Translations under genes and position numbers: made by a program
The notes under the pieces: generated by a model
The model's database searches: none
What the model was told of the DNA's origin: nothing
The model's input: the letters and a program-made list of their open reading frames with translations, nothing else
Part shown: in pieces, positions 1 to 6,011 of the stretch
Layout of the letters: each line of letters opens with the position of its first letter
Position numbering within the stretch: position 1 is the stretch's first letter
Source of the DNA: Candidatus Fermentibacterales bacterium
GTDB taxonomy: Bacteria > Fermentibacterota > Fermentibacteria > Fermentibacterales > JAFGKQ01
Assembly: GCA_016928495.1 (NCBI GenBank)
Contig: JAFGKQ010000117.1
Location: 1 to 6,011 of the forward strand
Length of the DNA: 6,011 bases
Direction: 5' to 3'

Positions 1-186
1 CCCGGGCAACTCGCACACTACGACGTACGAGTCGTCCGTCTCGTACACATCGGTCCTCGGGCAACGCGGGCCCGTCCGTCCGTCGCAAGGCAGAGGAAAC
101 GCTCTCCCCACACCCCCGTGCCGGTTCGCAGGCGCTGCGTGCCAGCGAGCCTCCGAGACAGGAGGGAGATCGCATGTTCCCGTCAT
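1..186 (-). CDS. Small heat-shock protein, Hsp20/alpha-crystallin family (partial, 5' part only)
   Basis: The gene reads leftwards off the window edge, leaving 62 codons. Residues 45-62, TDVYETDDSYVVVCELPG, match the conserved opening of the bacterial Hsp20 alpha-crystallin domain (family pattern roughly VD(I/V)YET(D/E)..YVV..ELPG). Hsp20 proteins are ATP-independent cytoplasmic holdases that bind unfolding proteins and pass them to DnaK/ClpB. The 44 residues before this motif fit the short variable N-terminal arm of the family. The ATG at 186-184 is chosen because a GGGAGG sits 6 nt upstream and a sigma-54 promoter stands just before that. The first 62 residues hold four cysteines (5, 34, 42, 58), unusual for a family that is normally cysteine-poor. 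The rest of the domain and the C-terminal I-X-I/V motif lie outside the window. The identification rests on one short but characteristic motif; an in-frame GTG at 111-109 is a weaker alternative start. Confidence 0.77.
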   Translation of the reverse strand, partial: MTGTCDLPPVSEARWHAAPANRHGGVGRAFPLPCDGRTGPRCPRTDVYETDDSYVVVCELPG

Positions 187-192
187 GTTCTG

Positions 193-198
193 CCTCCC
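193..198 (-). promoter_or_regulatory. Ribosome binding site of the hsp20 gene
   Basis: On the minus strand GGGAGG (AAGGGAGG at 200-193) is followed by 6 nt (CAGAAC) and then the ATG at 186. This near-ideal Shine-Dalgarno spacing fixes the start codon of the partial hsp20 gene. It lies inside a predicted leader of only about 17 nt. Confidence 0.75.
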
Positions 199-213
199 TT
201 CAGGGGCACAGGG

Positions 214-229
214 AGCAAGGCGCTTGCCA
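214..229 (-). promoter_or_regulatory. Sigma-54 (RpoN) -24/-12 promoter upstream of hsp20
   Basis: The minus strand reads TGGCAAG-CGCC-TTGCT. The sigma-54 consensus is TGGCACG-N4-TTGCW; this site matches 6 of 7 bases in the -24 element and all 5 in the -12 element. The invariant GG (228-227) and GC (216-215) are separated by exactly 10 nt. The expected transcription start is about 203, placing the Shine-Dalgarno sequence 5 nt and the ATG about 17 nt downstream. The agreement between promoter, RBS and start codon supports a working promoter rather than a chance match. Such promoters need an AAA+ enhancer-binding protein, and one is encoded at 1726-3087. No competing sigma-70 promoter is evident in the same gap. 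Confidence 0.78.
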
Positions 230-313: not shown

Positions 314-330
314 TGTGCAATAGTGGCACA
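314..330. promoter_or_regulatory. Candidate enhancer (UAS) for a sigma-54 activator: TGTGC-N7-GCACA
   Basis: The plus strand reads TGTGC AATAGTG GCACA, an inverted repeat with 5-bp arms and a 7-nt spacer, like dyads bound by Fis-type HTH dimers. Its centre (322) is about 119 bp upstream of the predicted hsp20 start, within the usual 80-200 bp range for such enhancers, and it is intergenic, 27 bp past the stop of the reductase gene. A further GCAC at 307-310 makes a second overlapping dyad, GCAC-GGAT-GTGC (307-318). It does not match the NtrC consensus, whose half-sites have the opposite order. Placement is good, but the arms are short. Confidence 0.42.
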
Positions 331-356: not shown

Positions 357-1205
357 TCAGGCCCGGAGGGGGTACTCCATTCCGAGGGATGAGGGAAGGT
401 CCGGGAATGGCCTCTTCAGTACTGCCCGGCCCAGCCGCAGGTCGAGGCTGAGGTCGAGCGGAGTGCCTTTCGGGGAGCGGCAGGGAGCCAGTCGCGCGGG
501 ATCGAGGCCCAGGTGCCCGAAGAGGGCCCGGGCGAAGCGCTCACGGCTGCATGCCTTCCCGGACGCCAGGAGCAGCATCCCCGAGGCGCCCATCTCGAAG
601 GCTTCCAGAACCGCTCCCGCCAGCCAGTGCGCCGGAGTGTGGTGCCGGAGGGAATCGGAATAGACCGGAAAGGTGCCCTCGGAGCTCTCCAGGAGCTCCT
701 CGCTGAAGGTGCTCCTCGCCGATCCGGTGGATCCGAAGATCACCGATGTCCTCGCGATCAGGGCGCTCTCCGAAGCGGCCTGGAGCAGCCTGTCGCCCAC
801 CAGCTTGGACCAGCCGTAGAGGCTCCTCGGAACGGCGGGCGACCGCTCGGAGTAGGGGGCGTTCCCTCCGCTGTAGACGAGATCGGTGGACAAGTGGATC
901 AGGCCGGTGCCCGAGTCCCCGCAGACCTCGGCGAGCATCCGCGGGAAGAGGGAGTTGACGCGCCAGGCCGCGGATGGGTCTCTCGAGCAGGACGCCCTCG
1001 AGGTTACCGCCACGCAGTTGACGACGAGGTCGGGCTTTGCCGCGCGGAGCAGCCCGAGGATCCCCTCTCGATCCAGACGATCGAGCGCGAGCCATCCGGC
1101 GCCGAGCGGGCGCCTCGAAGCCGCGGGAGCGAACGAGAGGCCGCCGGGCACCTCCAGGAAGCAACTGCCGAGGCGGCCGGAGGCTCCGAGCAGGAGGACC
1201 CTCAA
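357..1205 (-). CDS. RmlD-like NAD(P)-dependent sugar-nucleotide reductase/epimerase
   Basis: This 282-residue protein is a short-chain dehydrogenase of the extended (RmlD / dTDP-4-dehydrorhamnose reductase) type, close to the usual 280-300 residues. The N-terminus holds the Rossmann nucleotide-binding glycines GASGRLG (7-13). D59 and the VVNCVA segment (61-66) match the family's KPD.VVNCAA region. The catalytic triad is visible as Ser-Thr in LSTDLVY (105-111) and YGWSK (Y130, K134). The C-terminus (about 248-274) resembles the RmlD tail that carries a substrate-side Asp/Arg pair. True RmlD makes dTDP-L-rhamnose, but no rmlA, rmlB or rmlC neighbour is present, so the substrate is open and no symbol is given; a relative acting on another nucleotide sugar is equally likely. 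The start is TTG at 1205, just before the Rossmann strand. No Shine-Dalgarno sequence is visible, so translation may be coupled to the thioesterase gene ending 16 nt upstream. Confidence 0.86.
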   Translation of the reverse strand: MRVLLLGASGRLGSCFLEVPGGLSFAPAASRRPLGAGWLALDRLDREGILGLLRAAKPDLVVNCVAVTSRASCSRDPSAAWRVNSLFPRMLAEVCGDSGTGLIHLSTDLVYSGGNAPYSERSPAVPRSLYGWSKLVGDRLLQAASESALIARTSVIFGSTGSARSTFSEELLESSEGTFPVYSDSLRHHTPAHWLAGAVLEAFEMGASGMLLLASGKACSRERFARALFGHLGLDPARLAPCRSPKGTPLDLSLDLRLGRAVLKRPFPDLPSSLGMEYPLRA

Positions 1206-1221: not shown

Positions 1222-1623
1222 TCACTGGGAGCTGATGAATCTGGCGCTGGCGGTGCATCTGACCTGACCCTCCTGCGTCAGCTCCGCCTCGGCCCCCAGA
1301 ACCCGGCCCCGGATCCTGCTGGCCGTGGCCCGGACCACCAGCGGAACGCCTGTCAGCACAGGTACCCTGTAGCGGACGCTGATCTCGGCAGTGGCACATG
1401 GGCCGGCGAGGCTGATGCAGCTATAGGCCATCGCCTCGTCCATGACGGTCGACGCGATTCCTCCGTGCAGCACACCGGAGTAGCCCTGGTACTCCCTGCC
1501 GGGGGTCCATGAGATCTCGCAGGTGCCACCCTGCGCACGGATATCCAGGTGCAGCCCCGCAGGATTGCGGGGTCCGCACGCGAAGCAGAAGTCATCGTCT
1601 ACGAACGGGGATGAGTTGCACAT
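1222..1623 (-). CDS. PaaI/YiiD-like hotdog-fold thioesterase
   Basis: This 133-residue protein has the single hotdog domain of the 4HBT/PaaI superfamily, at the usual length for it. The N-terminus has DFCFACGPRNPAGLHL (11-26), matching the CxxCGxxNPxGLxL lead-in common in one branch of acyl-CoA thioesterase-like proteins. The catalytic helix follows as GVLHGGIASTVMDEAMAY (50-67), with the HGG turn (53-55) and acidic residues D62/E63 at the usual active-site place. The beta-strand region from about 78 to 131, including SVRYRVPV and RASGRVLGAEAEL-like strands, fits the rest of the fold. The family hydrolyses acyl-CoA or related thioesters; the substrate cannot be read from sequence. The ATG at 1623 is supported by a GGAGGG upstream. 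It is the first gene of a likely two-gene transcript with the RmlD-like reductase, with which no functional link is obvious. Confidence 0.88.
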   Translation of the reverse strand: MCNSSPFVDDDFCFACGPRNPAGLHLDIRAQGGTCEISWTPGREYQGYSGVLHGGIASTVMDEAMAYSCISLAGPCATAEISVRYRVPVLTGVPLVVRATASRIRGRVLGAEAELTQEGQVRCTASARFISSQ

Positions 1624-1634
1624 CGCTCTATCGA

Positions 1635-1725: not shown

Positions 1726-3087
1726 TTGGTCACTGTTCTCGGCAGCGGAACGGTACTGATCGCGGACGAGAAGCCGGAGAGGGCGAAGGAGCTCTCCGGG
1801 CTGGTCTCCTCCCTCGGGTACAGCACGACTCTCGAATCGACGGCCAGGGCCGCCCTCCGGAAGGTCCACGCGAGAGCCGTGAACGTCGTGCTCGCCTCGG
1901 CCACGCTGCCGGACATGCCCAGCACCGTCTTCCTCGACACGCTGCACAGGTCGAACGTCGCGGCGGGCGTAGTCCTGTACGGTGAATCGATCTCCAGGGA
2001 GGATGCGGTGATCCTGATGAAGAAGGGCGCCGTGGACATAATCTTCTCCCGTCGGGAGGAGCCGAGAGTCCTGGAGGCACTCCAGAGAGCGCTCGCCTGG
2101 TCCTCCAGAATAGTGGAGGACGCCGCTCTCCGTATGGCCTCGAGCGAAGCCTCGATGGAGCCCGTCCTGCTCTACCGGAGCGGCGCGATGGAGGAGATCG
2201 TCAGAAGGGTCCGCAAGGTCGCCCCGGTCAACGCCACGGTGCTGCTCACCGGAGAGAGCGGCACCGGCAAGGACTTGATAGCCCGCTACATCCACGTCCT
2301 CAGCGGCCGGACCGGAGCATACATAGCGATCAACTGCGCGGCCATACCGGAGACCCTGCTGGAATCCGAGCTGTTCGGCCACGAGAGGGGCGCCTTCACC
2401 GGAGCCGAGCAGGCGCGAGAGGGCAGGTTCGAAGCCACGAAGGGCGGCACTCTGCTTCTGGACGAGGTGGGGGAGATCCCTCTCTCGATACAGGTGAAGC
2501 TGCTGCGGGTCCTGGAGGAGGGGCAGGTCACCAGGCTCGGCTCGAACAGACCGATACCGACCGACGTGAGACTGATCGCGGCGACGAACAGCGACCTCAG
2601 GAGCCGGGTCCAGGAGAGGACCTTCCGCGAGGACCTCTTCTACAGGCTGAACGTGGTGGACATCCACATACCGCCTCTGCGCGCCAGGAGGAAGGACATC
2701 CCCCTGCTCGCCATGTCGTTCCTGAGGCAGGCATCGGAGAAGCACCGGCTGGCCATGCCGGAGATGTCCCCGGAGGCCCTGGAGGCCCTCACTTCCTATG
2801 GATGGCCCGGCAACGTCCGCCAGCTCAGGAACCTCATGGAGAGCCTGCTGATAGTCGCGGGCGACAGGATCAAGCCCGGGGACCTGCCTCGCGAGATCGC
2901 GGGCTCGCGCGCAGGCGATAGCTCCCTCCAGATCGAGCTCCCGGAGACTCTGGCAAACATCGAGGAAAGGGTCATCGCCTCCACGCTGGACCTGAGCGGA
3001 GGCAACCGCACGAAGGCCGCCAGACTGCTGGGAATCGGACGCAGGACCCTGCAGCGGAAGCTGGGCGGCGCGAAGCCGGACTCCTGA
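1726..3087 (+). CDS. NtrC-family sigma-54 enhancer-binding protein with degenerate receiver domain
   Basis: This 453-residue protein has the three-part NtrC layout: receiver (about 9-125), AAA+ ATPase (about 147-385) and Fis-type HTH (about 405-447). The AAA+ domain is intact: Walker A GESGTGKD (176-183), the sigma-54-contacting GAFTGA loop (222-227), Walker B LLLDEVGE (243-250), the REDLFYRLNV arginine region (301-310) and WPGNVRQL (360-367). The C-terminal LSGGNRTKAARLLGIGRRTL (423-442) is the DNA-binding helix-turn-helix. It should remodel sigma-54 RNA polymerase to open promoters from an upstream site. The receiver keeps the fold signature and an acidic D14/E15 pair, but the phosphoacceptor Asp is Ser58 (VVLASATLPDM), the switch Thr is Gly86 and the conserved Lys is Ser108. 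It therefore cannot be phosphorylated in the normal way and is probably controlled by a ligand, a partner or abundance. No kinase gene is adjacent. An ABC exporter gene follows after 32 nt, probably cotranscribed. Confidence 0.93.
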   Translation: MVTVLGSGTVLIADEKPERAKELSGLVSSLGYSTTLESTARAALRKVHARAVNVVLASATLPDMPSTVFLDTLHRSNVAAGVVLYGESISREDAVILMKKGAVDIIFSRREEPRVLEALQRALAWSSRIVEDAALRMASSEASMEPVLLYRSGAMEEIVRRVRKVAPVNATVLLTGESGTGKDLIARYIHVLSGRTGAYIAINCAAIPETLLESELFGHERGAFTGAEQAREGRFEATKGGTLLLDEVGEIPLSIQVKLLRVLEEGQVTRLGSNRPIPTDVRLIAATNSDLRSRVQERTFREDLFYRLNVVDIHIPPLRARRKDIPLLAMSFLRQASEKHRLAMPEMSPEALEALTSYGWPGNVRQLRNLMESLLIVAGDRIKPGDLPREIAGSRAGDSSLQIELPETLANIEERVIASTLDLSGGNRTKAARLLGIGRRTLQRKLGGAKPDS

Positions 3088-3119: not shown

Positions 3120-4925
3120 ATGGAGACCAACGCACCGGCAAGAAGGAAGCTGATCCTGCGGGCGGTCCGGATCGTGTGGCACAGCAGTCCGGCGCTCGCT
3201 CTGGCGAACGTCTTCCTGCTGCTGGTCCAGGGCGTTCTCCCGGTGGCCGGGCTCTATCTCCTCAAGCTGACGGTCGACTCGCTGCAGGGCCTGGCCACGG
3301 GCGAGGGAGGCCCGGCCTTCGGTCATGTCGCCCTGCTGATCGGGCTGATGGGCGCAGCCGCGCTGCTGGGTGCGCTGGCCTCCTCTCTCAGCAGTCTCGT
3401 CAGCAACGTCCAGGCGAGGGTCGTTACCGACAGGATGCAGGACGTCCTTCACGAGCGCTCCGTCAGCGTGGACCTCTCCTACTACGAGGACTCGCGCTTC
3501 CACGACACACTGCATCGCGCTCAGACCGAGGGTCCCTACCGGCCCACCTCGATCGTGAACGGGCTGGTCCGGTCGCTCCAGGAGCTGGTCAGCCTCCTGG
3601 CCATGACGGGTCTCTTGCTGACCTTCCATTGGGCCGTGGCTCTGGTCCTCGTCGCGGCAGCCGCTCCCGGCACCCTGGTAAGGATGAGGTACGCGAGGGA
3701 GCTCTGGACCTGGAAGATGGACAGGACCGAGACCGAGCGGCGCGCCTGGTACGAGCACTGGCTGATGACCTCCACTGCTCACGCCAAGGAGCTCAGGCTG
3801 TTCGGCCTGGGTGACTTCTTCAGGGAGCGATACAGGGACCTCAGGGCCTTGCTCCGCAAGGAGATGATGGGAATGGCGAAGCGAAGGGCGCTCTCGGAGC
3901 TGGGCGCTCAGGGCTCCGCCACGGTCCTGGTCTACGGGTCGCTCGCCTTCATCGCCTGGCGGGCGCTCAGCGGGACCATCTCGATCGGGGACGTCGTCAT
4001 GTACTTCCAGGCCTTCCAGCGCGGCCTGGGAAGCCTGCGGGGCCTGCTCAACAGCATTGCGGGCCTCTACGAGGACAGCCTCTACCTCTCGAGCCTCTAC
4101 GACTTCCTAGGCATGCGTCCGGACATCGCCTCGCCCGATGCGCCTGCCCCATTCACGGGCTCTGGAGACTGCGGCATCAGCTTCAGGGGCATCACCTTCG
4201 GCTATCCTGGAACAGGAGAGGCCGTGCTGAGGGATCTCGACCTGGAGGTCCTCCCCGGAGAGACGCTCGCTCTCGTCGGCGCAAACGGCTCCGGGAAGAC
4301 CACCCTGGTCAAGCTCCTCTGCAGGCTGTACGACCCCGACAGAGGCAGGATAGGCATAGGCGGCGTGGCCCTTCGGGATCTCGATCTGGTCGAGCTGAGA
4401 AGCCACATAAGCGTGGTCTTCCAGGACTTCGCCAGATACCAGCTCTCGGCGCGGGAGAACATCGCCATAGCCGACACGGGGGCCATGGAGGACCTGCCAC
4501 GAGTTCGAGGTGCCGCCGCCACGGCCGGAATGGACGATCTGCTCTCGGCGCTCCCGGAGGGATACGAGACCCGCCTCGGGAAGTGGTTCAAGGGAGGCAC
4601 GGAGCTCTCGGACGGTGAGTGGCAGAAGATGGCGCTCGCAAGGGCCTTCTTCCGCAGCGCCGATATCGTGGTCCTGGACGAGCCTACCGCATCTCTCGAC
4701 GCCAGGTCCGAGAGGGAGGTCTTCCGCCGCTTCAGCGAGCTGGCAGGCGGAAGGACCGCCCTGCTCATCAGCCACAGGTTCTCGTCAGTGAGGATCTGCG
4801 ACCGGATAGCGGTGCTCGATGGAGGCCGGATAGCGGAGCTGGGCACCCACCAGGATCTGATGCGGCTGGGCGGCCTCTACGCCGAGATGTACTCCATATC
4901 GGCAGAAGCCTATGACCGGTCTTAG
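3120..4925 (+). CDS. ABC exporter half-transporter (fused permease and ATP-binding domains)
   Basis: This 601-residue protein joins an N-terminal membrane domain to a C-terminal nucleotide-binding domain, as in homodimeric type IV (ABCB-like) exporters of the inner membrane. Hydrophobic segments lie near 26-48, 69-92, 153-185 and 264-283, with a weaker one near 290-315. The stretch KELRLFGLGDFFRERY (223-238) is typical of the cytoplasmic helix in this subgroup. The ATPase has Walker A GANGSGKTT (387-395), Q-loop VFQDF (Q435), Walker B IVVLDEPTASLD (516-527) and H-loop ISHRF (H552). The signature is LSDGE (496-500) instead of the usual LSGGQ/E, with Asp replacing the first Gly. Cargo is unknown; lipids, peptides or drugs are all possible for the subgroup. 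It follows the sigma-54 regulator by 32 nt with only a weak RBS, suggesting one transcript, and converges on uvrA with 36 nt between stop codons. Confidence 0.93.
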   Translation: METNAPARRKLILRAVRIVWHSSPALALANVFLLLVQGVLPVAGLYLLKLTVDSLQGLATGEGGPAFGHVALLIGLMGAAALLGALASSLSSLVSNVQARVVTDRMQDVLHERSVSVDLSYYEDSRFHDTLHRAQTEGPYRPTSIVNGLVRSLQELVSLLAMTGLLLTFHWAVALVLVAAAAPGTLVRMRYARELWTWKMDRTETERRAWYEHWLMTSTAHAKELRLFGLGDFFRERYRDLRALLRKEMMGMAKRRALSELGAQGSATVLVYGSLAFIAWRALSGTISIGDVVMYFQAFQRGLGSLRGLLNSIAGLYEDSLYLSSLYDFLGMRPDIASPDAPAPFTGSGDCGISFRGITFGYPGTGEAVLRDLDLEVLPGETLALVGANGSGKTTLVKLLCRLYDPDRGRIGIGGVALRDLDLVELRSHISVVFQDFARYQLSARENIAIADTGAMEDLPRVRGAAATAGMDDLLSALPEGYETRLGKWFKGGTELSDGEWQKMALARAFFRSADIVVLDEPTASLDARSEREVFRRFSELAGGRTALLISHRFSSVRICDRIAVLDGGRIAELGTHQDLMRLGGLYAEMYSISAEAYDRS

Positions 4926-4961: not shown

Positions 4962-6011
4962 TCACGAGGCGGTAAGATCGGGCTCCCTGGCCAGGAACGC
5001 GCCGGTGTAGGAGACGGGGTGCCTCGCCAGGCCCTCCGGCGTGTCCTCCGCGATGATCTCGCCTCCCTGGTCCCCGCCCTCGGGGCCGAGGTCTATGATC
5101 CAGTCCGCGTTCTTTATCACATCCATGTTGTGCTCGATCACCACCACCGTGTTCCCCGCCCTGACCAGCCTGTCGAGGACCCTCAGCAGCCTCTTCACGT
5201 CGTGGCAATGGAGCCCGGTGGTGGGCTCGTCCAGTATGTAAAGGGTATGGCTGGTGCTGGGTCTGGAAAGCTCGCGGGCCAGCTTGGTCCTCTGGGCCTC
5301 CCCACCGGAGAGCGTCGGCGCGGGCTGGCCGAGCTGGATGTACCCAAGGCCAACCTCGTCGAGCACCCTCAGAATGCGGTAGATGGCCGGTATCCTGTCG
5401 AAATGGTCCATTGCCTGGCGGACCGTGAGGTCCAGTATCTCCGCTATGTCGAGGTCGTGGAACCTGACCTGGAGGGTCTCCCTGTTGAACCTGCGTCCCT
5501 TGCAGGTCTTGCACTCGACGAACACGTCCGCGAGGAAATGCATCTCTATCCTCTTCACGCCCGCGCCGCGGCAGTCCTCGCACCTCCCGCCCTTCACGTT
5601 GAAGCTGAACCTGCCGGGCCTGTAGCCCCGGACACGGGCATCCGGAAGGCCGGCGAAGAGGTTGCGGATATGGTCGAAGACCTTGGTGTAGGTGGCGGGG
5701 TTGGAGCGGGGGGTCCTGCCTATGGGGTCCTGGCTTATGTTGATCGCCTTGTCGATGTTGTGGACGCCCTTGAGGCCGGTGCAGGGTCCGCCGCGGTCGA
5801 GGGCTGACGAGCCCAGAGCAGCGGAGACGGCGGGATAGAGGGTCTCCGTTATCAGCGAGCTCTTGCCCGAGCCCGAGACCCCCGTCACGCAGACGAAGTT
5901 CCCCAGCGGTATCCTCAGATCGACGCTCTTCAGGTTGTGCAGGGTTGCCCCCTCGAGCTGGAGCAGCTTCTGGCCCTTCTTCCTGGGAGAGCGCACCCTG
6001 TGTATGGCCTC
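4962..6011 (-). CDS. uvrA: UvrABC excinuclease subunit A, C-terminal part (partial)
   Basis: The frame is open to the right edge, giving the last 349 residues of a protein normally about 940 long. UvrA is the DNA-damage-sensing ATPase of nucleotide excision repair; it loads UvrB at lesions. The fragment covers the second ATPase module. In fragment numbering it has Walker [10 protein letters not shown] (44-52), a zinc finger with C144-x2-C147 and C167-x2-C170 around the diagnostic [13 protein letters not shown] segment, the signature LSGGEAQR (234-241), Walker [11 protein letters not shown] (259-268) and the His loop VIEHNMD (H294). It ends with the usual UvrA tail ([14 protein letters not shown]), so the 3' end is complete. 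All key residues are present. It shares no strand or operon with its neighbours and looks like ordinary housekeeping. The start codon lies beyond the window; the in-frame GTG at 5996 is internal. Confidence 0.97.

Follow-up and report, generated by a model that had tools for sequence, protein, structure and literature searches.

Chaperone genes of Candidatus Fermentibacterales share a probable sigma-54 promoter and upstream activator site

In the textbook account, bacterial heat-shock genes are controlled by RpoH, HrcA/CIRCE or RNA thermometers. The locus described here raises the question of whether a small heat-shock gene (hsp20) is under sigma-54 control, and whether it is alone in this. 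The window, i.e., the whole stretch of DNA that was analysed, is a complete contig of 6,011 bases (G000:C206) from a metagenome-assembled genome of 2.3 Mb that is 81% complete. The source genome belongs to Candidatus Fermentibacterales, an order within Candidatus Fermentibacterota in the FCB group. The first-pass annotation presented the sigma-54 site as an oddity of a single hsp20 gene, but across the order such sites turned out to be the norm at hsp20, groESL and the dnaK operon. Judged from sequence comparison, without transcript or mutant data, the site in the window is very probably a promoter of the sigma-54 type coupled to an activator site further upstream, an arrangement common to the chaperone genes. 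The features of the window are listed below.

1-186, minus strand: 5' part of hsp20, 62 codons, ended by the contig end (similarity to Hsp20 N-termini, synteny)
193-199, minus strand: Shine-Dalgarno-like AGGGAGG (read directly from the sequence)
203 (approximate), minus strand: predicted transcription start (sigma-54 promoter geometry, 12 nt downstream of the -12 GC)
214-229, minus strand: putative sigma-54 -24/-12 promoter element, TGGCAAG-CGCC-TTGCT (consensus match and conservation in relatives)
314-330, minus strand: palindrome TGTGCCA-CTA-TTGCACA, probable upstream activating sequence (motif search, conservation)
357-1205, minus strand: RmlD-like reductase, a syntenic neighbour between hsp20 and the activator gene (sequence match, synteny)
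1222-1626, minus strand: hotdog thioesterase, a syntenic neighbour (sequence match, synteny)
1726-3087, plus strand: sigma-54 activator (bEBP) with a pseudo-receiver, a Sigma54_activat AAA+ domain and a Fis-type HTH (domain matches, orthologs, synteny)

The element TGGCAAGCGCCTTGCT (229-214, minus strand) differs from the consensus TGGCACG-N4-TTGCW at one position, with 11 of 12 consensus bases present and an exact GG-N10-GC spacing, just as had first been described. With one mismatch allowed, it is the only match in the window, where 0.02 would be expected by chance, and a match of this quality occurred in 4 of 200 shuffled windows. With two mismatches allowed, 0.56 matches are expected, so a match at that level is unremarkable. 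The site is also an inverted repeat, as can be read directly. Both points leave room for a chance resemblance, in which the palindromic GCAAG-CGC-CTTGC only looks like a -24/-12 element and is perhaps a repressor operator. On its own, the site is modest evidence, and it becomes strong because it is conserved in relatives. Its placement agrees with the earlier description of a start just upstream of the ribosome-binding site and ATG: AGGGAGG lies at 199-193 and the start codon at 186-184, and the start near 203, predicted from geometry, would give a leader of about 17 nt.

The identity of the gene behind this site requires some care. The first-pass annotation called it an Hsp20 gene; the 62-residue stub has no match to the Pfam HSP20 family on its own, and the name was retained because of its similarity to Hsp20 N-termini and its synteny. 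Orthologs in the same synteny match PF00011. In one relative (G006), the gene order is activator, thioesterase, RmlD, uvrA, hsp20, dnaK, grpE and dnaJ, and the activator, thioesterase, RmlD and hsp20 genes of the window are arranged in the same way. Additionally, another contig of the same genome (C305) starts with the 3' end of a dnaK, followed by grpE and dnaJ. Given this synteny and the dnaK remnant, an hsp20-dnaK-grpE-dnaJ operon probably begins with the hsp20 of the window; that the truncated gene belongs to it is inferred. A second, divergent dnaK (60% identity) is found in the same genome (G000:C142) without a -24/-12 site. It was considered as the operon partner and rejected on account of its divergence and missing promoter, the remnant on C305 being the better candidate. 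Beside the activator gene, the window also holds an MsbA-like ABC transporter gene (3120-4925) and the 3' part of uvrA (4962-6011).

Conservation of the element upstream of related hsp20 genes and the presence of rpoN in the genome had been named as checks of the sigma-54 reading, and both were found. Scored with an approximate sigma-54 weight matrix, high-scoring -24/-12 sites are present upstream of 31 of 66 hsp20 genes, in 27 of the 35 genomes of the order with adequate upstream sequence. The antisense strand at the same loci gave none (0/66). The hsp20 genes without a site mostly belong to a divergent, lower-scoring class. At groES, the element was found at all 30 loci examined, 80-129 nt upstream of the Cpn10 domain, and canonical dnaK promoters carry it in 30 of 30 cases. 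It lies directly before dnaK, or, in G002, G004, G005, G006 and G010, before the hsp20 that precedes dnaK. In promoter alignments, identity is 0.87-0.98 at the -24/-12 positions, 0.33-0.41 in the N4 spacer and 0.29-0.37 in the upstream region. The genomes of the order are related to one another, which bears on these counts. The sigma-54 reading is thus supported by computation, with conservation far beyond the antisense control; there are no data on RpoN dependence, which remains an inference. Of the rpoN gene itself, a C-terminal fragment is present, which includes the RpoN box RRRTVANYR; like the hsp20 of the window, the gene is cut by a contig end. The other two HSP20-domain genes of the genome, in tandem on C136, sit behind one site, TGGCATG-ACCT-TTGCT. 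Further sigma-54-like sites precede groES-groEL (C78) and two type IV pilin genes, a classical sigma-54 target.

The conserved sequence does not end with the -24/-12 element. A palindrome, TGTGCCACTATTGCACA, occupies 330-314. It is 101 bp further upstream than the -24 element, a position suited to an enhancer-binding protein, and 0.04 such matches would be expected by chance; it is absent from the first-pass annotation. The sequence TGYGYCA-N3-TGRCRCA, or a close variant, is common to the hsp20, groES and dnaK promoters of the order, and its distance to the -24 element is nearly fixed: 100-102 bp at dnaK, mostly 122-124 at groES and mostly 96-116 at hsp20. A strict palindrome pattern by itself retrieved too few promoters. 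A composite pattern, which consisted of the palindrome core, a gap of 80-110 and the -24/-12 core, succeeded. It matches the window and none of 200 shuffles. In 42 genomes, it gave 61 matches, every one before hsp20, groES or dnaK, and the backwards control gave 0. By script, 60 of them were assigned (hsp20 11, groES 23, dnaK-grpE 26), and the 61st was assigned to dnaK by eye. The source genome has exactly two, both at hsp20. The pattern was built from these promoters, which makes its recall partly circular but does not affect its precision or the absence of control matches.

These counts also bear on the chance resemblance raised above. Relatives keep the -24/-12 letters but not the repeat symmetry (TGGCAAGGCTGTTGCT, TGGCAAGCCTCTTGCT), and neither the antisense count (0/66) nor the composite count (61 against 0) fits a coincidence. 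A chance match or a palindromic operator was rejected and is regarded as very improbable.

The search for a good palindrome at sigma-54-type sites of pilins and other genes in the source genome found none. The type IV pilin genes (G000:C191, C95) have near-perfect sigma-54 sites without a palindrome, and an FmdB-type zinc-ribbon gene (G000:C307) has a perfect sigma-54 site and, 86 bp further upstream, a palindrome with 4 mismatches. In dnaK promoters, a further conserved stretch, approximately GTAAyATnnTGCagtrCAAc, lies between the palindrome and the promoter, at roughly -42 to -23 relative to the -24 element. It is seen in part at groES and hsp20 and not clearly in the window; it is possibly a DNA-bending site.

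It must still be asked whether other forms of control could account for these genes. HrcA and CIRCE control the dnaK operon and groESL in many bacteria. The HrcA search was negative in all 42 genomes and positive in 7 of 14 control genomes, and the CIRCE search of 94 promoters gave at least 6 mismatches throughout; HrcA/CIRCE control was therefore rejected. One may also suppose that a housekeeping or other sigma-70-family promoter, or an RNA thermometer, mainly drives the chaperones and that sigma-54 is accessory. In some genera, conserved TATA-like stretches at dnaK, located further upstream than the palindrome, would suit such a promoter, and RpoH was outside the searches. Against it, no sigma-70-like site was found in positions 1-1500 of the window, in line with the earlier remark that no other promoter was recognisable, and neither HrcA nor CIRCE was found. 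As for ROSE-type and other thermometers, the window has no Rfam match and the leader is too short, as had been pointed out; folding of the hsp20 start region gave z = -1.41. The RNA thermometer was rejected, and the whole alternative of another main control is considered unlikely. The sigma-54 regulon of the order apparently stands in place of HrcA/CIRCE, as far as can be predicted from these genomes.

Because sigma-54 promoters require an activator and are silent in its absence, control of the chaperones would be positive and ATP-driven. The window encodes an enhancer-binding protein and has an activator-like site within about 80-150 bp upstream of the promoter; no binding data exist. The protein (1726-3087) has the same receiver-AAA+-Fis HTH layout as enhancer-binding proteins of the NtrC/AtoC/ZraR type, but it does not reach the curated NCBIfam cut-off for any listed family. 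It also differs from phosphorylated NtrC-type response regulators in that the phospho-acceptor Asp is replaced by Ser or Ala in all 34 aligned orthologs. For this reason, it would be controlled other than by phosphorylation. Perhaps it is controlled by chaperone titration; how stress is sensed is the most speculative part of the proposal. One close copy is present in 38 of 42 genomes at about 55-65% identity, the next paralog being at about 42%, and nine relatives have it no more than about 14 kb from grpE.

Of the activators that might act at the palindrome, this protein is the best candidate. This is inferred from synteny only, and we would not put it quite as high as an even chance. The promoter and upstream site may be real while the activator is a different enhancer-binding protein, for example a neighbouring one or another of the genome's set, and this possibility is likewise a serious one, if somewhat short of even. 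Each genome has about 11-30 activator-like candidates. In several relatives, a second activator gene, about 40% identical and with the Asp intact, is located some 3-5 kb away from the first, and in the large genus g2 the ortholog of the first is unlinked to dnaK. Nevertheless, in the window, G005 and G006 it is the gene of the pseudo-receiver protein that shares synteny with the hsp20-dnaK operon, and among the genera of G011 and G013 this gene is close to dnaK-grpE. A gene similar to the second activator is found on contig C80 of the source genome.

With the pseudo-receiver protein as the provisional candidate, the following mechanism can be proposed. Sigma-54 RNA polymerase would form a closed complex on the -24/-12 element (229-214). 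The enhancer-binding protein would bind the palindrome at 330-314, and the intervening DNA would loop. ATP hydrolysis by the AAA+ domain would then open the complex, and transcription would start near 203 into hsp20 and probably continue into dnaK-grpE-dnaJ. Binding, looping, the function of the two elements as promoter and enhancer, and heat induction are all inferred, and no experimental data exist for them; what can be read from the genomes is the two elements, their conservation and spacing, and, as a pair, their restriction to chaperone genes. The groES-groEL and other hsp20 genes would be driven by the same two-part switch, and on this ground a sigma-54 regulon of chaperone (heat-shock) genes is proposed for the order. 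Throughout the order, the principal chaperone genes (hsp20, groESL and dnaK-grpE-dnaJ) would thus share one sigma-54 switch with a common upstream site, and both the candidate protein and the DNA site are defined well enough to be tested.

The arrangement is not confined to the order. Among named genomes outside it, 17 dnaK loci have a -24/-12 site, including those of Gemmatimonadota, Latescibacterota, Poribacteria, Sumerlaeota/BRC1, Tritonobacter and others. The palindrome core GYCA-N3-TGRC is present at 12 of these 17 loci, where 0.56 would be expected, against 3 of 57 loci without the site (p = 1e-7). The dnaK loci with a perfect CIRCE in other phyla had no sigma-54 site. Since dnaK promoters of several further phyla have the palindrome too, chaperone control without HrcA/CIRCE becomes directly testable there. 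In the broadest reading, Fermentibacterota as a rule control their chaperones through an old sigma-54 heat-shock regulon with one unphosphorylated pseudo-receiver enhancer-binding protein at GYCA-N3-TGRC, and at least the promoter architecture of this regulon is shared with Gemmatimonadota, Latescibacterota, Poribacteria, Tritonobacter and others. In this full form, the reading is tentative and rather doubtful. Individual dnaK promoters of Gemmatimonadota, Latescibacterota, Poribacteria and others have -24/-12 sites often accompanied by one or two palindromes. In a marine Verrucomicrobia record, dnaK and an activator gene are divergently oriented, with about 0.4 kb or more between them, and a sigma-54-like site lies upstream of that dnaK.

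Compared with known systems, the HrcA/CIRCE system has the same target genes, but the searches found no HrcA in the genomes of the order and no CIRCE in their promoters. The precedent first offered for a sigma-54 promoter at a small heat-shock gene, E. coli ibpB, is weak: its sigma-54 ChIP signal was only background, and the claim was not upheld and was called a likely misannotation (PMC4591121). A better one is Flavobacterium psychrophilum, for which the part of the report that was available gives mapped starts with -24/-12 elements (motif SM4) at groES-groEL, dnaK, grpE-dnaJ, htpG, clpB and lon (PMC9723704). Sigma-54 promoters at groESL and dnaK/grpE/dnaJ are common to this species and the order. 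According to the same part of that report, the species belongs to Bacteroidota, a different phylum of the FCB group, and has grpE-dnaJ separate from dnaK; hsp20 is not among the genes listed there, and no activator site is given (PMC9723704). In the planctomycete Rhodopirellula baltica, rpoN itself is not heat-regulated (PMC2754498). A Desulfovibrio sigma-54 regulome paper contained nothing useful on chaperones, and the literature search found no paper on heat shock that dealt with Fermentibacteria or with sigma-54 in Gemmatimonadota. A 2025 survey of Planctomycetota and Bacteroidota found GroEL, IbpA (Hsp20), GroES, GrpE, DnaJ and DnaK enriched for predicted sigma-54 promoters; its main text does not name Fermentibacter, and the present analysis adds the activator-site motif, the fixed spacing and the candidate activator (PMC12316311). 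Sigma-54 control of chaperones is therefore known in kind, while the phylum, the shared palindrome as an activator site and the candidate activator appear to be new in the literature searched. Candidatus Fermentibacterota, a little-known and mostly uncultured phylum, probably runs a heat-shock response quite unlike that of E. coli or Bacillus.
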